A stretch of 64,000 bases of DNA from Anaerolineae bacterium (GTDB lineage Bacteria; Chloroflexota; Anaerolineae; UBA4142; SHND01): NCBI GenBank assembly GCA_020851635.1, contig JADZCJ010000140.1, forward strand, positions 186,001 to 250,000, given 5' to 3'. Numbering within the stretch: position 1 is the first letter of the stretch; the number at the start of each line of letters is the position of its first letter. The notes beneath the pieces are model-generated. The model was given only the letters and a program-made list of their open reading frames with translations. It was not told the DNA's origin and searched no databases. Below are positions 7,964 through 25,412 of the stretch, piece by piece. The translations under genes and the position numbers were made by a program.

Positions 7964-8585
7964 GAAATTTACCGTCCTGTTTCAACAGCTTGCCAAAGAT
8001 CCTTGCTCCGTGCGCAAATGCGCCCTCTATTGTCTTGAGCATCCCCTGCGCGCTGTCTTGTTCTGCGCGCCACTCCTCGAGATGTTCCGTCGAGCAAAAG
8101 AAATTGATGGAGGGACACTGTTCCAACGCAGCTACACAGCATGCATCGGCTTGCATATACCACACGCGCGCTCCAGGCGGCGATACCTCTTCTAATGCAT
8201 TACGTTTGACCGTGATGCGAATTTCTTTGTCGCACCGGGTACAGCGCGATTCAACCCTCGCGTCAGCATCGAGCATGACAGGCATTCCCAGCGCGTCGAT
8301 CGCGCACATGGCGTACACGAAATGTCCATCGGCAAAGCGGACGACATGTTGCGTCGGCGTCGCGGAAAATGGATACGCGGCGAGAATCGCTCGCGTTTCG
8401 GGATCTCGATAGATTGAGCCACCTGATTCCAGTAGGTTCAATGATTGTTCGACTTTCTCGCGCGAGAGCGCAAGCGCGTTCACGAGTGATTCCGTCGTCG
8501 TGGGCTGTCCCGTGCGCGCAAAGGACAACAGCATCTGATGATATACGCGCGCGTAGTTGTCCATTAAGACCATTGCGCCTATCAC
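7953..8585 (-). CDS. merB: Organomercurial lyase
   Basis: A 210-residue protein matching MerB, which cleaves the carbon-mercury bond of organomercurials. The catalytic triad positions are visible: Cys94 and Asp97 in YAMCAIDALGMP and Cys157 in EQCPSINFF, equivalent to Cys96, Asp99 and Cys159 of the plasmid R831b enzyme. An N-terminal winged-helix-like region precedes it, as usual. An alternative start is the ATG seven codons in. It lies 18 bp after merR and overlaps merA, so Hg(II) released by MerB can be passed directly to the reductase made from the same mRNA. Confidence 0.92.
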   Translation of the reverse strand: MIGAMVLMDNYARVYHQMLLSFARTGQPTTTESLVNALALSREKVEQSLNLLESGGSIYRDPETRAILAAYPFSATPTQHVVRFADGHFVYAMCAIDALGMPVMLDADARVESRCTRCDKEIRITVKRNALEEVSPPGARVWYMQADACCVAALEQCPSINFFCSTEHLEEWRAEQDSAQGMLKTIEGAFAHGARIFGKLLKQDGKFHAL

Positions 8586-9233: not shown

Positions 9234-10133
9234 ATGAAAACTCAAACTAAACTATCCACAGTGGCCGGCATCGTAGCGTTACTTGTAGTCGCCCTGGCAC
9301 TCGGGGGCTGGTTTGCGAACACTGCGTTCGCGCAAGGCCCCTGGGGAGGCGGTTTTATGGGCATGGGGCATAACAACCAGGCTGCGCTCACCTTGCTCAA
9401 AACCAACGAAAGCGATTTGCTGCTGCAACGTCAACAAGGCAAGAGTTTGCTGGACATTGCGTCTGTAATCGGCGTGAGCGAATCGGCGTTGACCGAAGCG
9501 CTGCTGCAGCCGATGACGCAAATGTCAAGTTGGATGACGCAGCATCATCCGCAATCCGACGTCACACAGATGACCGAATGGATGCGTCAACAAATCTCCC
9601 AAGATCTCCGCGTGGCTCAGTACGGCACAATGACCGATATGCACCTGTTTGGCGGTTCCATAATGAACGGGATGATGGGCAATGGAAACGGCAACAATGG
9701 TTTTGGTGGCATGATGGGCGGTTACGGGATGATGGGCAATGGGAACGGCACCAATGATTTCGGCGGCATGATGAACGGCCATGGGATGATGGGAGGTGAC
9801 ATGATGGGCGGGTGGAACAACACGCCGAACGTCAACGCGACGCCCGTGCCTTCCTCGCAAAAGGTGGATCGCGAAGTAAATCTCACTGCGACCAATTTCA
9901 AATTCGTACCGGCAACGGTCACAGTCAAGGCGGGGGAGACTGTCAAATTGACAATTGCCAATCAAGACAAGTTTGCGCATAACGTGGTAAGTCAGGATGG
10001 AAAACTCGCCTACACCGTACTGCCGGCGAATCAAACAACCTCCATCCTGTGGGTCGCGCCGAACGAGGCGGGGGACTATATTATCAAATGTACCTGGCAT
10101 CCGGGAATGCAATTTACAATTGATGTCGAGTAG
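9234..10133 (+). CDS. Met-rich exported cupredoxin
   Basis: A 299-residue exported protein. Signal peptide about 1-33 (ending AFAQG). Residues 50-130 form a helical domain with a helix-turn-helix-like stretch; 140-195 is a low-complexity Gly/Met/Asn block with many MMG repeats, likely a copper-binding arm. Residues 215-299 are a cupredoxin domain with the type 1 copper ligands visible: His249, Cys286, His289 and Met292 (KCTWHPGM). It probably carries electrons or copper outside the cell. AAAGGA lies just before the ATG. A fragment of the helical region recurs as a remnant at 16235-16372. A strong terminator follows. Confidence 0.88.
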   Translation: MKTQTKLSTVAGIVALLVVALALGGWFANTAFAQGPWGGGFMGMGHNNQAALTLLKTNESDLLLQRQQGKSLLDIASVIGVSESALTEALLQPMTQMSSWMTQHHPQSDVTQMTEWMRQQISQDLRVAQYGTMTDMHLFGGSIMNGMMGNGNGNNGFGGMMGGYGMMGNGNGTNDFGGMMNGHGMMGGDMMGGWNNTPNVNATPVPSSQKVDREVNLTATNFKFVPATVTVKAGETVKLTIANQDKFAHNVVSQDGKLAYTVLPANQTTSILWVAPNEAGDYIIKCTWHPGMQFTIDVE

Positions 10134-15768: not shown

Positions 15769-15981
15769 TGATATATGGTGCGTGCCTCTGTCCCTCCCGT
15801 TTCAGGGTCACTTTTTGGCGCACTCGCGCATGTTCCTTATCTGAAGGATGCTCATTTCCTCAAAGGGAACGTTTGACACCTGCGTTTCGGGTAGTCTTTC
15901 GCACCTGTTATTGAGAAGGTGATCTTCAACGCCTCCAGTGGTACTCTGAATTACCGTGGCGCCACTGCCACTCAACTTTCT
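15725..15981 (-). ncRNA. Predicted short transcript, copy 1 (~257 nt)
   Basis: Bounded by the tandem-palindrome promoter R3 and an intrinsic terminator; about 80% identical over its length to copy 2 (22475-22733), which has the same promoter, length and terminator. The RNA may act as an sRNA, or encode a peptide: one frame reads ...RLPETQVSNVPFEEMSILQ and ends RNMRECAKK, closely matching copy 2, including a 3-nt in-frame length difference. The minimal ORF with an ATG is 15 codons (MSILQIRNMRECAKK). No known RNA family is recognised. Confidence 0.5.
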
Positions 15982-15987
15982 GCCTTC

Positions 15988-16053
15988 AGATTATCTCCTT
16001 GCGCAGACAAGGGCTACCGCCGCATGGCTGGTTTTCCTACACGCCATCTGGCG
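15988..16053 (-). promoter_or_regulatory. Tandem-palindrome promoter of short transcript, copy 1 (R3)
   Basis: Minus strand: palindromes at 16042-16053 (CGCCATCTGGCG) and 16018-16029 (CGCCGCATGGCT), 24 bp apart, then -10 TAATCT at 15993-15988, 24 nt further (GATAAT overlaps it at 15995-15990). Confidence 0.6.
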
Positions 16054-16125
16054 TATTGACAAGCCGCAACTTGCCGTCGGATTTTTGTCACGATACCGCT
16101 GAGAATGGGATGCATTAGCTTTATA

Positions 16126-16246
16126 TCACTTCAAACGGTAAAATCCGATGCTAATCACGATGATTCCCAGGCCCGTTGGCACGATGAGATTGATCGGTTC
16201 TCCAAAAATGAGGGCTGCGGGAATCACGCCAAACGCGTGCGGGAGT
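16126..16246 (-). pseudogene. EamA transporter C-terminal remnant
   Basis: About 40 codons read AFGVIPAALIFGEPINL...TGLGIIVISIGFYRLK, matching the last helix pair of the intact EamA transporter at 22842-23762 (AFGLFLAALIFGETI...GAGIIVIGIGIL). It lies next to copy 1 of the short transcript exactly as the intact gene lies next to copy 2, so this is one arm of a decayed duplication. Confidence 0.8.
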
Positions 16247-16515: not shown

Positions 16516-16965
16516 ATGAATCCCATGCTATTCAAACGTCTTGCCTCTTTTTTGCTACTGGCGAGTCTTTTTGCGCCCACGCTCATGATGACTTCGTGCG
16601 CATCCCAGCCCACCCAGCATGAGGTGCATCTGGCACCCGTGTCCATGCTGCCCGCAGAAATGCAGAGCGCCCCGGAAAGCGTGCGCACCGCGTACCAATT
16701 TGCGGTAGCGAATCCCGAACCACTCAAGAACGTGCCATGCTATTGCGGTTGCGGCGCGGTGGGTCACAACAGCAACTACGATTGCTATATTCAGGACGCG
16801 CCAAACAACGGCAAGATCATTTTCGACGAGCACGCGCTTGGCTGCAGTATTTGTGTGGATATTACGCAGGACGTGCTGCGCATGTCGCGGGATGGGCGCG
16901 CCCCGCCGGATATCCGCGCAGAGATCGTGAATACGTACAGTCGGTTTGGACCGTCGAACCAGTGA
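16516..16965 (+). CDS. PCYCGC-motif lipoprotein (Cys form)
   Basis: A 149-residue exported protein with signal peptide and a Cys in a lipobox-like position (MTSCASQ, about residue 27). The core is a PCYCGCG motif (residues 74-80) followed by DCYI and, later, LGCSICVDI with a CxxC pair. This matches the PCYCGC-motif family of unknown function, likely metal- or heme-related and on the outer face of the membrane. It starts a five-gene cluster with CuA proteins. A paralogue at 62809-63273 has UGA in place of the first Cys of the CxxC pair, so this gene provides the Cys-form comparison. Confidence 0.88.
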   Translation: MNPMLFKRLASFLLLASLFAPTLMMTSCASQPTQHEVHLAPVSMLPAEMQSAPESVRTAYQFAVANPEPLKNVPCYCGCGAVGHNSNYDCYIQDAPNNGKIIFDEHALGCSICVDITQDVLRMSRDGRAPPDIRAEIVNTYSRFGPSNQ

Positions 16966-16966
16966 A

Positions 16967-17431
16967 ATGAATTTTCACCTTCCACACGGTCGCTATTACC
17001 GATACCTGATCGCCGTAAGCACTGTGTGTTTGATGTTTGCGGCGATTTTTCTTCCGTTGCCGGTGGACGCGTATACTCCCGAAACGCACACCCTGCAGAT
17101 CAACGCGCGCACATTTGCCTTTGAGCCCGGTTCCATCGCAATCCGGCGCGGCGATACGATAACCATAGAGCTGGAGGCGCTCGACGCGGTGCACGGCTTG
17201 TACCTGGATGGCTACGACGTGAACCTTGTCGCCGAGCCGGGCAAGAGCGCCAGCGTGACGTTTGTTGCGGATAAAGACGGCAAATTCAAATTTCGGTGTT
17301 CGGTTGCGTGCGGCGCGCTGCATCCCTTCATGATCGGCGAATTGAATGTGGAACCGGATATCCCCCTCGTGCGCGCGCTGCTCATCACGCTCATGGGCGT
17401 GATCGGTGCACTGGCATTCTTTTGGAAATGA
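16967..17431 (+). CDS. CuA-domain protein (cytochrome oxidase subunit II-like)
   Basis: A 154-residue protein with N-terminal signal anchor (about 12-36) and a cupredoxin domain carrying the binuclear CuA site: His in AVHGLYLDGY, then CSVACGALHPFM (Cys-x3-Cys-x3-His-x2-Met). A further helix lies at the C-terminus (about 136-154). It would accept or deliver electrons outside the membrane. Start at 16967 is 1 bp after the previous stop; ATGA overlap with the next gene shows tight coupling. It lacks the two-helix hairpin and size of standard subunit II. Confidence 0.9.
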   Translation: MNFHLPHGRYYRYLIAVSTVCLMFAAIFLPLPVDAYTPETHTLQINARTFAFEPGSIAIRRGDTITIELEALDAVHGLYLDGYDVNLVAEPGKSASVTFVADKDGKFKFRCSVACGALHPFMIGELNVEPDIPLVRALLITLMGVIGALAFFWK

Positions 17432-18792
17432 CTCGAACAAAATTGGAACTCACACGGTTTCCCTCTGTGAAACGACTGCTCACGAGTCGATGGGTGCCGT
17501 GGACTTTGATGGCAATCACCTTGCCTGTCTTTTTGCTCGCGATCTTGACAGGGTTGTTTGGCACGCCCGCCGGCAGTCGGAATTTCGGTATTATCTTTGT
17601 GTGGATTGTATGGTGGGCGCTCCTCATTCTGGTGATGGTGCCGTTCGCAGGCCGCTTGTGGTGCGCGGTGTGTCCGATCCCCGCGCCCGGCGAATGGCTG
17701 CAGCGCCGCGCCTTGGTCCAATCCCGCCCGGGTGGGAAACTGTTTACGCTCGGTGGGAAATTTCCCCGCCGCCTCAAAAATATCTGGCTGCAAAATGCTG
17801 CCTTTCTCGCCGTCGCGCTGTTCTCGGTCGTGATTCTGACGACGCCGTTCGTGAGCGCCCTTGTATTGCTTTTCATGATCGTTCTGGCAATGGCTACAAG
17901 TATGCTGTTTGAGCGGCGTGTCTTTTGCCGCTACATCTGTCCTGTCGGCGGCTTCATTGGCTTGTATTCTCAAGTCGCCCCCATCGAGGTGCGCGTCAAG
18001 GATATGGCAGTGTGTCAATCGCACGTCGAGAAAACGTGCTATCAAGGCAGCGATGCCGGGTACGGTTGTCCCTGGCTCGTGTATCCGGCAGCGCTCGACA
18101 GGAATACCTACTGCGGCATGTGCATGGAATGTATGAAAACATGCCCGCACGATAATGTTGGCATCTTTTTGCGCGCTCCGGGCAAAGATTTGCAGACGAC
18201 ACAGGGGCGACGGCTCGACGAGGCATACAAAGCGTTCATTATGCTCACCTGTGCGCTCGCCTATTCGATCGTGCTTTTGGGACCATGGTCGCTGTTCAAA
18301 GAAAGCGCGTACGCGGTGGGAACACTCGCCTGGTGGGTCTATGCGAGCCTATTTCTGGCGGCAAACCTTGTGATTGTGCCCGGCATCTTTTTCGCCTGCA
18401 CGACGTTTGCCCGCAAATTGTCGTACAACAAATTCTCACTGCGCCGCACGTTTGTCGAGTATGCGTACGTGCTGGTGCCGCTCGGGCTTGTCGCATGGGC
18501 TGCCTATACAATCTCATTTGTCTTTGTTAATTTTTCGTACGCGTGGCAAGTCGTGTCCGACCCGTTTGGCTGGGGTTGGAATCTGTTCGGCACTGCCAAT
18601 TGGACGTGGACACCCTATCTTGCCGGGCTGCAAACATTTCTACAGATCCCCATTTTGCTGGTCGGCTTGATCGCCGCCATCGGCATGGCACTCCGGACCG
18701 CGAATTCACAAGGCGTGCCCCGGCGCGCAGCACTGCCCGTCGTCACCTTTTGTGCGGCGTTCACGGTCGGGTTGTTGTGGTTGTATGTTTGA
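17428..18792 (+). CDS. NosR/NapH-like membrane ferredoxin
   Basis: A 454-residue polytopic membrane protein with Cys-rich cytoplasmic parts: LWCAVCPIPAPGEW (about 76-89), FCRYICPVGGF (about 166-176) and YCGMCMECMKTCPHD, a CxxCxxCxxxCP [4Fe-4S] motif. The CxxxCP repeats are typical of NosR, NapH and CcoG-type proteins that carry electrons between the quinone pool and periplasmic enzymes. It sits between two CuA proteins, which suggests a short electron chain from membrane iron-sulfur clusters to CuA centres. Start overlaps the upstream stop (ATGA). Confidence 0.88.
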   Translation: MTRTKLELTRFPSVKRLLTSRWVPWTLMAITLPVFLLAILTGLFGTPAGSRNFGIIFVWIVWWALLILVMVPFAGRLWCAVCPIPAPGEWLQRRALVQSRPGGKLFTLGGKFPRRLKNIWLQNAAFLAVALFSVVILTTPFVSALVLLFMIVLAMATSMLFERRVFCRYICPVGGFIGLYSQVAPIEVRVKDMAVCQSHVEKTCYQGSDAGYGCPWLVYPAALDRNTYCGMCMECMKTCPHDNVGIFLRAPGKDLQTTQGRRLDEAYKAFIMLTCALAYSIVLLGPWSLFKESAYAVGTLAWWVYASLFLAANLVIVPGIFFACTTFARKLSYNKFSLRRTFVEYAYVLVPLGLVAWAAYTISFVFVNFSYAWQVVSDPFGWGWNLFGTANWTWTPYLAGLQTFLQIPILLVGLIAAIGMALRTANSQGVPRRAALPVVTFCAAFTVGLLWLYV

Positions 18793-19809
18793 GTGCATCC
18801 ATTGAAACGCGAATTTTTAGCACTTGGCATCCTGGCGCTCGCGGTGATTGCATTTCCCGCCGCGTTGTTTGGCTATCAGACATGGCGCACACACGCAGAA
18901 GGCGTGCGTGTGATTGACCTCGTCGGGAGTTCTCCGGACCGCGGCGGCTGGATGCCCGACGCGATTCGGGTGAGCGTGGGCGAGAGGGTCCGCTTGCGTA
19001 TTTCGTCCCCCGATGTCGTACATGGGTTTGAGATTCCCGCACTGGGCGTGCACGTTGAGGAGATTTTGCCGGGGCACGTGCAAGAGGTCGAGTTTGCTGC
19101 AACGCAGGCCAGGCGGTATCCGTTCGCATGCACGCGCTGGTGCAGTGTGGACCACTGGCGGATGCGTGGGGTGATCGAGGTAATTGATCCTTCACAACCC
19201 GATGCGCCGCCGCCCACCTTCGAACCCCCGCTCTACCAACAACTTGGCATTGACATTGATGCGCTTCATCCTGCTCAAAATGTCCCAACGGGTCGTCCTT
19301 CCGTTGCGCGCGGCGCGCAATTGAATCTCAACTTCACCCCCGATTTTCGGACGCAGTCTCCGGGCGATGTATTCGCTCAACTCCGCGCGGATTCAGCATA
19401 CGAGCGCTATGATGATATGCAGTTATGGGATGCCATCGCATTTGCATATGCTCGCAGCGCCGGAAACGGGAGTATCGCACGGGGCGCGCAGCGCTATGCG
19501 CGCGATTGCGCGGCCTGTCACGGGGAAGCGGGCGATGGCACGGGACCCGCCGGTCGAGATCTGCCCGGATTGATGGCGATGGATCCTTCGACCGAGGCGC
19601 ATGACAGCGCCGGGATGGTCAGCGGGCCCGCCAATTTCACCGATGCCGCGCAAATGCTCGGGGCGAACGACGCATTCTTGCAAGGCAAAGTCCTGCGCGG
19701 CGGTATGGGGACAGGGATGCCCGAGTGGGGCTCGCTCTATTCCGAGCAAGACTTGTGGGACGTGGTCGCCTTTTTGCGCTCGTTCACTTTTGATATCGTG
19801 ATAAAATAA
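18793..19809 (+). CDS. CuA-cytochrome c fusion protein
   Basis: A 338-residue protein beginning at GTG directly after the previous stop. N-terminal anchor (about 8-28), a cupredoxin domain with a CuA site (His in VVHGFEIP; CTRWCSVDHWRM gives Cys-x3-Cys-x3-His-x2-Met, about 117-128), then a linker and a class I cytochrome c domain with CAACH heme-binding motif (about 238-242) and a distal Met likely in GTGMPEWGS. The layout is that of oxidase subunit II with fused cytochrome c, but no subunit I is in the window. It may pass electrons to an oxidase or N-oxide reductase encoded elsewhere. Confidence 0.9.
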   Translation: MHPLKREFLALGILALAVIAFPAALFGYQTWRTHAEGVRVIDLVGSSPDRGGWMPDAIRVSVGERVRLRISSPDVVHGFEIPALGVHVEEILPGHVQEVEFAATQARRYPFACTRWCSVDHWRMRGVIEVIDPSQPDAPPPTFEPPLYQQLGIDIDALHPAQNVPTGRPSVARGAQLNLNFTPDFRTQSPGDVFAQLRADSAYERYDDMQLWDAIAFAYARSAGNGSIARGAQRYARDCAACHGEAGDGTGPAGRDLPGLMAMDPSTEAHDSAGMVSGPANFTDAAQMLGANDAFLQGKVLRGGMGTGMPEWGSLYSEQDLWDVVAFLRSFTFDIVIK

Positions 19810-19828
19810 AAAAGGAGGAGATTTTGCG

Positions 19829-20311
19829 ATGACCAAAAAATCACAGAGCAAGTCCAATCATCATCCGGTGCGGCGCAAGCCGATTCCGGCTGCCTGGATG
19901 CTGCTCGGCGGACTCGCGCTTGGCGCAATCGCGGTTCTGGCACTGGTGTGGATCACTTTGACGCCGAATCGCGGCGATGGCGGTCCGCCGCAGCTGCAGG
20001 TCAGTACCGAGCGTTTGGATCTGGGCAAACAGATTCTTGGAAAAACAGTGCGTGCGAGTTTTGAGGTGAGCAACAAGGGTACGGGTGCGCTCACTCTCAC
20101 CGTCCCGCAGCTTGCAACTGTGCTGGAAGGGTGCTGACCATCCCGAATTATCGTCGGTCAGACGATTCTAGGGCCCGGAGAAAGAACGACAATTTCCACA
20201 GATTTCATGATGCACGAAGGCATGGAGGGACCCCATCTCTTTGAGATCCCGCTTACGACGAATGATCCGGCACAGCCGCTAAAGAAATTGCTCATCGCGT
20301 CGGTTTGGTAA
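19829..20311 (+). CDS. DUF1573-like membrane-anchored protein, predicted selenoprotein (Sec103)
   Basis: The frame from ATG 19829 (AAGGAGGAG upstream) runs to TAA at 20309-20311 with one in-frame TGA at codon 103. Before it: basic start, one helix (about 22-43), and an Ig-like DUF1573-type domain (LDLGKQILGKTVRASFEVSN). After it the same frame continues for 57 codons with family-like sequence (IIVGQTILGPGERTTIS, MMHEGMEGPHLFEIPLTTNDP). The context is EGC-UGA-P; from memory, homologues have GCCPP, so UGA replaces the second Cys. Starting 18 nt after the UGA is a GGTCA loop on a 6-bp stem, as in E. coli fdhF. If UGA were a stop the domain would lose its last third. Redox function beside CuA proteins is inferred. 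Confidence 0.75.
20138..20168 (+). promoter_or_regulatory. Predicted bacterial SECIS element (gene at 19829)
   Basis: Stem ATCGTC (20150-20155) / GACGAT (20161-20166) with 5-nt loop GGTCA (20156-20160). Exactly 18 nt separate the UGA and the GGU of the loop, the same distance and loop start as in the E. coli fdhF element. GA/TC can extend the stem past a 3-nt bulge. Confidence 0.7.
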
Positions 20312-20364: not shown

Positions 20365-20400
20365 ATAGAAACCAGTCGGCTGTTGTCGGCTGGTTTCTAT
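20365..20400 (+). terminator. Hairpin after selenoprotein gene
   Basis: A perfect 11-bp stem (ATAGAAACCAG / CTGGTTTCTAT) closes a 14-nt loop. It ends in AT-rich sequence rather than a T-run, so termination is plausible but not certain. Confidence 0.6.
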
Positions 20401-20480
20401 ATATTTGAAATATGCCAAAACGCTACCATCACAGCAACCACATAGGTACAGATAAACTCACACCCTTGCCTGATAGCATC

Positions 20481-20722
20481 GCACCCACACGCAGCCTGCC
20501 GACCGGTGGTCCGCCATCACATGGTGACGCGCGTCCATCACGGCGAGTTTGTGAAATGCGCCAGCAATCTGCCACAAATCATGGACGACGAAATCCACCC
20601 GATCATTTGGATTCTCCGCTCCCTTTGGATTCACCCAAATCGTTTTCCATCCCAATGCGTGCGCGGGTGCAAGGATAATCATCGGCACTCAGCAGAGCAT
20701 CATCCAAAACCAGTGCTTCCAA
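20481..20722 (-). pseudogene. HAD-hydrolase C-terminal remnant
   Basis: Two adjoining frames read LVLDDAL, then LAPAHALGWKTIWVNPKG, VVHDLWQIAGAFHKL and RSAGCVWV. These match the C-terminal third of the intact HAD gene at 23780-24484 (LVMVDDALSNLAPAQALGWK...) with a frameshift between the first two blocks. It is a decayed partial duplicate. Confidence 0.85.
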
Positions 20723-22517: not shown

Positions 22518-22733
22518 TGATATATGGTGCGTGTTTCGGTCCCTCCCGTTTCAGCGTCACTTTTCTTTGGCGCACTCGCGCATGTTCCTTATTTGAAGGA
22601 TGCTCATTTCCTCAAAAGGAACCTTTGACACCTGCGTTTCGGGTAATCTGTCGCACCTGTTATTGAGAACCTGATGTTCAACGCCTCCAGTCTTACTCTG
22701 AATCGCCGTGCTGTCACTGCAATTCAGTTTTCT
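22475..22733 (-). ncRNA. Predicted short transcript, copy 2 (~259 nt)
   Basis: Paralogue of 15725-15981 with the same promoter architecture (R6), length and terminator. Its frame reads IQSKTGGVEHQVLNNRCDRLP..., then MSILQIRNMRECAKEK and a TGA stop. Against copy 1, many differences are conservative or silent and the only length change here is one extra GAA codon, which hints at a peptide of up to about 55 residues with two conserved Cys. A pure sRNA role cannot be excluded. Confidence 0.5.
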
Positions 22734-22739
22734 GACTCT

Positions 22740-22805
22740 AGAATAGCATCCTCCAAAGACAAGTGTTACCGCCGCATGGCTTGTTCTCTTGTACGCCATT
22801 TGGCG
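22740..22805 (-). promoter_or_regulatory. Tandem-palindrome promoter of short transcript, copy 2 (R6)
   Basis: Minus strand: CGCCATTTGGCG at 22794-22805 and CGCCGCATGGCT at 22770-22781, 24 bp apart; -10 TATTCT at 22745-22740, 24 nt beyond. The layout is superimposable on R3. Confidence 0.65.
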
Positions 22806-22841
22806 TATTGACAATTGGGGTTTTGCAATATCGGATTTTCG

Positions 22842-23762
22842 TCACGATGTAGAAGACAATGGGGTGCGTTGGCTCTTTGCCGCTTCATGCGACAGAATCC
22901 CAATGCCAATCACGATGATCCCCGCACCCGCGATCTCGACGCGACCGATCGTTTCTCCAAAAATGAGCGCCGCGAGAAACAACCCAAACGCGGGCGTGAG
23001 CATAAAGAACAAACTCAAACGGCTCACGTCATCGAATTGCAAGAGCCAATACCATGCGGTGTTCAAGAGCGCCGTGCCAGCCAGCGCGAGAAAAAGCAGC
23101 AAGACGGTAAACTCGAAATTCAGAACGATGTTTGCACCGCGTTCTGTCCATGCCGCGAGCGCAAACAATGGCACACTGCCAACCAGTAATTGCCATGCGG
23201 CAACGCCAAGCAACGCACTTTTCAAGTTCATCCTTTTCGCGACGACGTTGCTCACAGCGGCGCTGCCCGATGCGCCGAGCGCCAGCGCCGCGCCCGAAAT
23301 GCTGTACGCGTCGGCTGTCGCAATCGCAGGATACGCAATCAGCGTCACGCCAAGCAAACCGAGAACGAGCGCAATCGCCTTCCCGCGCGTCAGTGCTTCA
23401 CCTATAAAGACCGCCGCGAGCGCAACGGTGAACAATGCCTGCATGTTCCCTAATACCGATGCGATCCCCGCCCCCGTTCGTCCCGGACTCAAAAACATCG
23501 CGCCAAATGTCAGCGTCGTGGCGGTGAAGGCAAGCGCGAGAATCCCGGGCCACAACGCGCGTGCAGGCAGTAAGGGTTCACCGCGCAAGCGCAACACACC
23601 CAACAAGGCGACGCCTGCAATCAACGCGCGTAGTCCCGCGAATGTGAGTGGCGGTGCAAATTGCAGGCCGGCTTTAATCGCCGCAAAACAGAGCGCATAG
23701 ACGAGGACGATGCCTAGCATGCAAGTGAATTGCGTCGCTCGCATGGGAGCAGCTGAATTCAT
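22842..23762 (-). CDS. EamA/DMT-family transporter
   Basis: A 306-residue membrane protein with ten helices in two EamA repeats (first ending ...GVTLIAYPAIA, second ending GAGIIVIGIGIL). These export small metabolites across the inner membrane; the substrate is unknown. The ATG at 23762 is preferred over an upstream GTG because GGGGAGGAG lies before it, although very close. It is the last gene of a minus-strand run beginning at 29728. A remnant of its C-terminus lies at 16126-16246. Confidence 0.88.
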   Translation of the reverse strand: MNSAAPMRATQFTCMLGIVLVYALCFAAIKAGLQFAPPLTFAGLRALIAGVALLGVLRLRGEPLLPARALWPGILALAFTATTLTFGAMFLSPGRTGAGIASVLGNMQALFTVALAAVFIGEALTRGKAIALVLGLLGVTLIAYPAIATADAYSISGAALALGASGSAAVSNVVAKRMNLKSALLGVAAWQLLVGSVPLFALAAWTERGANIVLNFEFTVLLLFLALAGTALLNTAWYWLLQFDDVSRLSLFFMLTPAFGLFLAALIFGETIGRVEIAGAGIIVIGIGILSHEAAKSQRTPLSSTS

Positions 23763-23779
23763 CTCCTCCCCTGATGGCG

Positions 23780-24484
23780 TTACACCCACAGGCAGCCCGC
23801 CAGCCGATGCTCCGCCATCACGCGGTGATGCGAGTCCATAACGCCGAGTTTAAAAAGTGCGCCAGCAATCTGCCACAAATCATGGGCGACGAAATCCACC
23901 TGATCATTTGGATTCTCCGCTCCTTTGGGATTCACCCAAATCGTTTTCCATCCCAGTGCCTGCGCAGGCGCGAGGTTTGACAGCGCATCGTCCACCATCA
24001 CAAGTCCTTCACTCGGCACATCCAAGGCGCATTGCACTTTTGTATAAACTGCGGTATTCGGTTTGCCTATGCCCTCGCCAAATTCATACGCGAAAAGCCG
24101 CGCGAAAAGCCGCGAGATATCGAGCCGCGTGAGGACGCGCTCGGCATACGCGTGCGGTGCATTTGTAAAAATCACACGCGGGCTTTGAATGCACTCGATT
24201 AAACAGCCCAAATCTTGATCGGGAGTGAGATACTGCTCGATGTTCACGTCATGCGCATACGCGCTCAAGTCGCCAAGGTCGAGCCCACCATGCAACGCCA
24301 CCCCACGAAAGAAAGAGCCGTAGCGGCGCTCGTAATCCCGTCGGAGCGCCTCCGCAGCGGCGGGCGTGAGTCCCAAATGAGCGATGAGATACGCGTTGAT
24401 GCGCGCACTGATCGCTTGCATCAATCCCGCGCCGGGTGGGTAGAGCGTTTCGTCTAAATCAAAGAGAACATATTCGACCATCAT
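23780..24484 (-). CDS. HAD-superfamily hydrolase (pyrimidine 5'-nucleotidase-like)
   Basis: A 234-residue HAD phosphatase: motif I FDLDETLY (residues 7-14), motif II FTNAP (about 109), motif III Lys in GKPNTAVYTK, motif IV MVDDALSNL. The helical cap between motifs I and II and the TLYPPGAGLMQAI start resemble the pyrimidine 5'-nucleotidase/SDT1-like group. Start at the first ATG of an ATGATG pair, 1 bp after the upstream stop, with GAAGGTGA before it. Its C-terminal third is duplicated as a remnant at 20481-20722. Confidence 0.88.
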   Translation of the reverse strand: MMVEYVLFDLDETLYPPGAGLMQAISARINAYLIAHLGLTPAAAEALRRDYERRYGSFFRGVALHGGLDLGDLSAYAHDVNIEQYLTPDQDLGCLIECIQSPRVIFTNAPHAYAERVLTRLDISRLFARLFAYEFGEGIGKPNTAVYTKVQCALDVPSEGLVMVDDALSNLAPAQALGWKTIWVNPKGAENPNDQVDFVAHDLWQIAGALFKLGVMDSHHRVMAEHRLAGCLWV

Positions 24485-24485
24485 T

Positions 24486-25412
24486 TCACCTTCTGCTGTC
24501 TTGAACTGTTTCATCAAACCACTCACAGATTTCGTTCGCCGCCTCTTTCGGATGAGACAGCATCCAATAAACACTTCCGTCCGCCTCAACCCTTTTTTTC
24601 TTGCACGGGAGGCGGGCATACAAATCGTTCAAATAACTGACAGGCACCGCGCCTCGCATCGACACAAGAAACATTGTAGGAATATATAAAGCGGAGAGTG
24701 GATTAGGCGGGGGAGTTGAAATAAGTGACATGATCGCTGCAAGTGGATACCACTGATCAAAATCGGGGTCCTTCAAATAGCCCTGCTTCACCAGAAGAGA
24801 TTCCTTCTTTTTGTTTTCGGGTTTGGCATCTACAAGTTCTTCCCAATCCAAATAGGACGAAATGGGAAGCGGCAATTTGGGAAAGAGGGGCTGCAAGAAT
24901 TTTAACAACGGCAGCATGCGTTTTCTCCTTTGAGCTGTACCATTGCCTTCCAGCATCGCGTCCAGATACTCTGGTTCCGTCGTGATAGCGGGAGAGTTTT
25001 GACAGATGATGCTTTTCAGGGGTCCATGTGCCAATGCTAGATAAAAGGTCACATAACCGCCCAATCCTTCGCCATAGACGCCAATGCTGTCGTTAAAGTA
25101 GCTTGAAATGTGCTTGAGCGCAGTGACATGTCGCGGCATGAGCTCTGGAAGGGTAGAGCCGCCATGCTTTGGCATGATAAACACATTGTATCCTCGCAAA
25201 CGAATTTGATACGCCAGTTCGGCAAAAACGTACGAATGGCCGCCCGAACCCGGCGAAATCAGAATATTCGGGGCGTTCTTGCCAAACTCAAACAACGGCA
25301 GTTCAAATTCCCGATCTTCAGAGACAAAGTGCGATCGCTTCAGATTTCGTTCAATCTCGTCAGGATCGGTTTCACTAACATAGTGTGATTTCCAGTAGGC
25401 TGGGTTTTTCAT
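24486..25412 (-). CDS. Alpha/beta-hydrolase fold protein lacking the Ser nucleophile
   Basis: A 308-residue soluble protein with an alpha/beta-hydrolase layout: strand and oxyanion region ILISPGSGGHSYVFAELAYQIRLRGYNVFIMPKHGG, the nucleophile-elbow position GVYGEGLGGYVTFYLAL, and a late His in WMLSHPKEAANEI. The elbow reads G-E-G-L-G where active enzymes have G-x-S-x-G, so Gly replaces the catalytic Ser. It may be non-catalytic or use another residue. GGAGGG lies 6 nt before ATG 25412. It is followed by the HAD gene after 1 bp. Confidence 0.78.
   Translation of the reverse strand: MKNPAYWKSHYVSETDPDEIERNLKRSHFVSEDREFELPLFEFGKNAPNILISPGSGGHSYVFAELAYQIRLRGYNVFIMPKHGGSTLPELMPRHVTALKHISSYFNDSIGVYGEGLGGYVTFYLALAHGPLKSIICQNSPAITTEPEYLDAMLEGNGTAQRRKRMLPLLKFLQPLFPKLPLPISSYLDWEELVDAKPENKKKESLLVKQGYLKDPDFDQWYPLAAIMSLISTPPPNPLSALYIPTMFLVSMRGAVPVSYLNDLYARLPCKKKRVEADGSVYWMLSHPKEAANEICEWFDETVQDSRR

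Follow-up and report, generated by a model that had tools for sequence, protein, structure and literature searches.

The locus raises the question of whether a UGA codon at positions 20135-20137 ends a gene after 102 codons or is read as selenocysteine (Sec) within a longer one. In the window (the whole stretch of 64,000 nucleotides that was analysed) an ATG at 19829 on the forward strand follows, at a distance of 9 nt, a Shine-Dalgarno-like GGAGGA (19814-19819, found by direct reading). After 102 codons the frame meets its single in-frame UGA, within the motif EGC-U-P, and then continues for 57 sense codons to a TAA at 20309-20311. These coordinates and the sequence had been given in an earlier note on this DNA and were found to be correct. 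Read through the UGA, the gene (19829-20311) yields 160 residues with Sec as residue 103. A single strongly hydrophobic segment lies near the N terminus of the product, in which Cys102 and Sec103 are the only thiol or selenol residues. Usual gene callers truncate such a protein at the UGA, and a conserved Met/His loop is then lost. A terminator-like stem on the same strand downstream of the TAA (20374-20395), obtained from a stem search against shuffled sequences, is weak because such sites are no commoner in this region than in the shuffles.

Conservation of the UGA and the selenium machinery

The UGA was found at the equivalent position in all six relatives compared (genome_contigs), one of which is a record named Candidatus Tectomicrobia (L027), the single genome by which that group is represented. 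Within the genus, 11 of the 12 matches across six genomes had one UGA and the remaining match, L039, had TGC. With P0001, matches were obtained in 24 of the 400 sampled genomes of the phylum, and 22 of these had the UGA form. A profile search raised the matching genomes to 25 of 400, again with the UGA form in 22; its matches without UGA were in G189, G197 and G305, the first two being ordinary CGC-type DUF1573 domains, and fragments on G117 and G010 and the match G134:C226 were left aside. A tblastn search of the plasmid collection gave no match to the protein.

L039 is the one Cys form that was met. It comes from the same genus, is 53% identical over 121 residues and has Cys at the UGA position. 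As proposed, Sec replaces the second Cys of a Cys-Cys pair, Sec103 following Cys102. Homologues ending at residue 102, or with a residue other than Cys at the next position, had been named as evidence against a selenoprotein; the relatives have UGA there or, in L039, Cys. Homologues had been said to carry GCCPP; the reachable relatives are nearly all Sec forms.

The codons downstream of the UGA had dN/dS values of 0.06-0.12 between the gene of the window and six relatives. In five of the six comparisons the value was lower after the UGA than before it, and the sixth was undefined with saturated synonymous sites. The codons beyond the UGA are under purifying selection, and the region past it is therefore translated.

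Three loci showed further copies of the gene. The genome of the window itself has a second UGA copy (G000:C70:325-798), 68% identical and adjoining its own PCYCGC gene. In L084 (G005:C338; near 4402 and 8014-8541) one operon-like cluster combines a Sec form with L039, close to a TlpA-like protein, cupredoxins and CopC/CopD. On G117:C1 an identical gene cluster was seen near 9724 and near 4125080 (L136 and L148), at both ends of the contig and with a broken frame in the second copy; this is probably a circular assembly whose ends overlap and contain an error.

A genome check for selA, selB, selD and tRNA-Sec had also been suggested, with a lack of selB and tRNA-Sec to count against a selenoprotein, and all four are present. 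The scores were 593.9 bits for selA, 348.7 bits for selB, 365.5 bits for selD, which has a UGA of its own at CAG-U (Sec-containing), and 69.5 bits for a tRNA-Sec with the anticodon TCA (UCA). ARAGORN found no tRNA within the window, and the tRNA-Sec lies elsewhere in the genome. Among the 28 carrier genomes, selB was above the cut-off in 24 and below it in G004, G034, G134 and G264. At 1e-40, selA was found in 20 of the 22 carriers of the phylum (G034 and G275 were without), a co-occurrence that is no evidence either way because 322 of the 400 sampled genomes have selA. The carriers without selB or selA are perhaps incomplete metagenome-assembled genomes. One of them, G034, is 88% complete and has the UGA form, with neither selA at 1e-40 nor selB above the cut-off.

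A SECIS-like hairpin after the UGA

A bacterial SECIS-like hairpin was located at 20149-20167 of the forward strand by folding, covariation and a covariance model. Six standard pairs join 20150-20155 with 20161-20166, and the loop starts with GGU (20156-20158). As the earlier note had stated, exactly 18 nt separate the UGA from the start of this GGU; the SECIS of E. coli fdhF has the same spacing. Folded as a single sequence, 20135-20182 gave a z of -0.83, with 41 of 200 shuffles as good, and the tighter stretch 20138-20176 gave a z of -1.69, with 10 of 200 as good. The single-sequence hairpin is not beyond chance, and its significance comes from comparison. Its use as an argument against a nonsense mutation was accordingly weak when taken from this one sequence, and the matter was settled by comparison and covariation.

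The hairpin was counted over 38 distinct UGA loci, the identical copies L031, L035 and L038 having been removed. At +18 the loop was GGU in 33 loci and AGU in three; the two exceptions are L026, with its loop at 21 nt, and L027, with a CGU loop and an irregular hairpin, which was kept in alignment A1 all the same. In a stem of seven pairs, 92.5% of the 266 cells were standard pairs, and pairing reached at most 65.8% in a control with the partner slid by one to three columns. Two-sided changes occurred in all seven pairs, in 63 cells, where shuffles averaged 25 (none of 500 reached 63); these cells are counts of sequences rather than of events, in a stretch that is also coding. Unaided, RNAalifold recovered the inner six of the seven pairs, plus two isolated pairs further out. 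An outer CCC/GGG stem seen in the single-sequence fold was missing from the RNAalifold consensus and was rejected.

With a leave-genus-out covariance model built on 26 loci, the site after the UGA ranked first in the 64 kb (34.1 bits, E 1.5e-6), the runner-up having 12.1 bits and an E of 0.29; such scores reflect coding conservation besides structure. All 13 further UGA loci that had been kept out of the model were hit at the UGA, L027 with the lowest score (18.7 bits); the model recovered L054 and L067, two UGA forms that were recognised later and are outside alignment A1. The Cys form L039 lacks the hairpin and gave no match to the model. An Rfam scan of the window at the gathering thresholds gave no matches, a result without bearing on the hairpin.

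On these comparisons we hold with high confidence that 19829-20311 encodes a selenoprotein. The UGA would be decoded by SelB with Sec-tRNA(UCA), the in-frame hairpin and its GGU loop serving as the signal for insertion. An early end at residue 102, through a nonsense mutation, a pseudogene or a sequencing error, has next to no probability: UGA does act as a stop in the standard code, and a z of only -0.83 was obtained for the hairpin by itself, but the same UGA recurs in many unlinked genomes, purifying selection acts beyond it, the hairpin covaries and L039 has a Cys at this position. Reading of the UGA as some other amino acid such as Trp, or plain read-through, in either case without Sec, is very improbable. 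It is the frame and not the residue that is visible in the DNA, yet the genome holds a tRNA-Sec (TCA), selA, selB and a selenoprotein SelD, the Cys form carries Cys here, and the hairpin and its +18 spacing are conserved.

Protein family and relation to known selenoproteins

Forty Sec forms were aligned with L039; across these 41 proteins, G66, N82, C102, residue 103, P104 and G117 were invariant, M128, M132, G134 and H136 were kept in 40 and H129 in 37. With start codons assigned by rule, a hydrophobic stretch near the start was present in 36 of the 41, and three of these have a lipobox according to a simple pattern. The AlphaFold2 model (mean pLDDT 90.2) has predicted strands at 62-67, 74-82, 88-91, 97-100, 106-109, 119-126, 135-144 and 151-159. 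Its closest solved structures are Ig/PapD-like (2qsv with Z 13.4, rmsd 2.3 and 105 aligned). The best 50 rows of either structure list were mostly Ig/PapD/MSP-like and named no thioredoxin, an absence from a list that is no proof. In Pfam the protein passed PF22544 (HYDIN_VesB_CFA65-like Ig; 29.9 bits against a cut-off of 25.5). The protein very probably consists of an Ig/PapD-like domain outside the cytoplasm with an N-terminal membrane anchor, as judged from sequence and model.

The turn that links the predicted strand 97-100 to strand 106-109 holds Cys102-Sec103, and the loop 127-134, with the positions just past it, holds the near-invariant M128 H129 x G131 M132 x G134 x H136. Alternate turns (83-87, 101-105 and 127-134) contain N-x-G (the invariant N82-x-G84), C-U-P and the Met/His loop. 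If the strands alternate in direction, as is usual in folds of this kind, the three turns share one pole. The C-U-P motif, the Met/His loop and the N82-x-G84 turn would then make up one site, on grounds of modelled topology rather than of a measured distance.

The earlier label of DUF1573-like is weak. The protein fails the gathering cut-off of Pfam DUF1573 (PF07610; 17.3 bits against 26.1), while PF22544 passes; distant homology was nevertheless indicated by hhalign, in which alignment A2 matched five CGC-type DUF1573 domains with a probability of 98.8. In that alignment the leading Cys of CGC is matched by Cys102 and the Gly by Sec103; the MMHEGM-GPH loop is missing from the five domains. 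Top structural neighbours of the protein are of the HYDIN/CFA65/VesB-like type of PF22544, a family in which we know of no Cys-Sec pair.

The earlier note, whose author knew of no described selenoprotein family of this DUF1573 type, needs correction here. A DUF1573 selenoprotein with the motif UGC appears in reviews (PMC9312934; PMC13188914), and OS_HP2 (pfam07610, motif UxC) is in the GOS table of 2008 (PMC2398784), where the printed rows, the header aside, read as 2 Sec and 354 Cys sequences. OS_HP2 (NF041425; PF07610) belongs to the same broad Ig-like DUF1573 superfamily and is a selenoprotein in some members. It differs from the present family in its printed motif, UGC or UxC as against G-C-U-P with Sec one position later, and in usage, the present family being nearly all Sec. 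The protein of the window scored 18.7 bits with the NCBIfam model NF041425 (cut-off 100), and that model had no match above its cut-off in any of 201 genomes of the phylum. All relatives found but one use Sec, which is uncommon next to the OS_HP2 counts and suggests that the protein depends on selenium for its work.

In the table of 119 families of 2026 (Table 1, PMC13188914) a differing Sec position within one domain counts as a distinct subfamily, and among its printed entries none combines the G-C-U-P motif with this domain. Other C-U selenoproteins (SaoL, SaoC, HgcA, KCU-star, MbdU and form 2 of the CopZ family) share the vicinal Cys-Sec motif (PMC13188914) but are under other domain accessions, in a comparison by listing and NCBIfam scan; that scan of the protein named none of the six. 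Motif strings such as GCUPP returned unrelated words only, among the literature matches listed. No description of a Cys-Sec DUF1573-like type was found in the literature covered on DUF1573, PCYCGC and Chloroflexota selenoproteins, in Table 1 of PMC13188914 or in NCBIfam. The Cys-Sec type is apparently not yet described, while DUF1573 selenoproteins as such are already known.

Gene neighbourhood and possible role

Four genes precede the selenoprotein gene on the forward strand. They encode a PCYCGC-family protein (PF13798; 16516-16965), a conserved genomic partner found by Pfam and neighbour scan and here a Cys form; a cupredoxin resembling the COX2/NosZ copper domain (16946-17431, from a mechanical TTG start, the true start being probably later); a NapH-like membrane 4Fe-4S protein (17296-18792, from a mechanical GTG start, with a conserved frame from near 17428); and, immediately upstream, a cupredoxin-cytochrome c fusion protein (18793-19809). 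The same gene order is found in many relatives. Around the UGA genes, 27 of 40 regions contained a PCYCGC gene, which had the same orientation in 26, and none of 31 control loci (107,610 bases) had one; 13 regions were without this neighbour, and L148, the contig-end repeat with the broken frame, was excluded from the count. No stop codons were seen in the matched stretch of the 27 PCYCGC genes. The PCYCGC family has a second listing, OS_HP4/CYCXC, as a selenoprotein of other organisms.

Other neighbourhoods varied. CcmF is near the gene in L093, L094, L098 and L027, with CcmE and CcmH in most of these, and L093 also has a TlpA-like gene close by. L025 has a gene of a metal-sensitive repressor family (PF02583) upstream and PCYCGC downstream, and L084 has CopC/CopD genes nearby. 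L086, L087 and L088, which belong to the genus, have a PAS-histidine kinase beside the gene instead of the copper/cytochrome cluster, and in several regions the neighbours were uninformative.

From the neighbourhood, the type of residues and the fold topology, we tentatively propose a role in copper or heme-c handling, at rather less than an even chance. The Cys-Sec pair together with the Met/His residues would bind or reduce Cu(I), or would hold target cysteines reduced, during the assembly of copper and heme-c respiratory proteins and jointly with the PCYCGC lipoprotein. In its fullest form, which is speculative, this would be a nearly Sec-only extracytoplasmic Ig-like family in which Cys-Sec and the Met/His loop make up a single site for soft metals. 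The protein would then serve Chloroflexota as a copper chaperone or reductant with selenium as a ligand and, with the PCYCGC lipoprotein, would build their cupredoxin, CuA-like and cytochrome c centres. The PCYCGC, cupredoxin, cytochrome c and Ccm partners are a direct lead on a possible use of selenium in copper or heme-c assembly outside the cytoplasm.

Two other roles would leave the selenoprotein itself in place. It could act mainly as a metal-free thiol-disulfide oxidoreductase for the cysteines of apocytochrome c or CuA, as the TlpA-like gene with CcmE/F/H in L093 and the Ccm genes in L094, L098 and L027 suggest, the vicinal Cys-Sec being moreover the sole thiol/selenol pair in most members. 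The predicted fold, however, resembles Ig/PapD domains, with no thioredoxin named in the best 50 rows of either structure list, the near-invariant Met/His loop suggests a metal, and cupredoxin/cytochrome c neighbourhoods are commoner than Ccm, so that we consider this role possible but rather unlikely. A part in defence against soft metals or organometals (Hg, excess Cu) rather than in the assembly of respiratory centres is improbable. The PF02583 and PCYCGC genes of L025 and the CopC/CopD genes of L084 point towards it, and several C-U selenoprotein families listed in PMC13188914 are related to mercury or organometals; but no mer gene was among the scanned neighbours, and respiration is better suited to the Ccm and cytochrome neighbours.

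Direct repeats at 15814-16245 and 22566-23000, whose segments keep both their order and their distances (249 nt at 85%, 70 nt at 71% and 101 nt at 76%), are apparently the remnant of a duplication beside a transporter-like gene. A further direct repeat of 234 nt (83%) joins 20441-20674, just downstream of the selenoprotein gene, with 23742-23975, and duplicates the end part of a gene located at 23780-24619.
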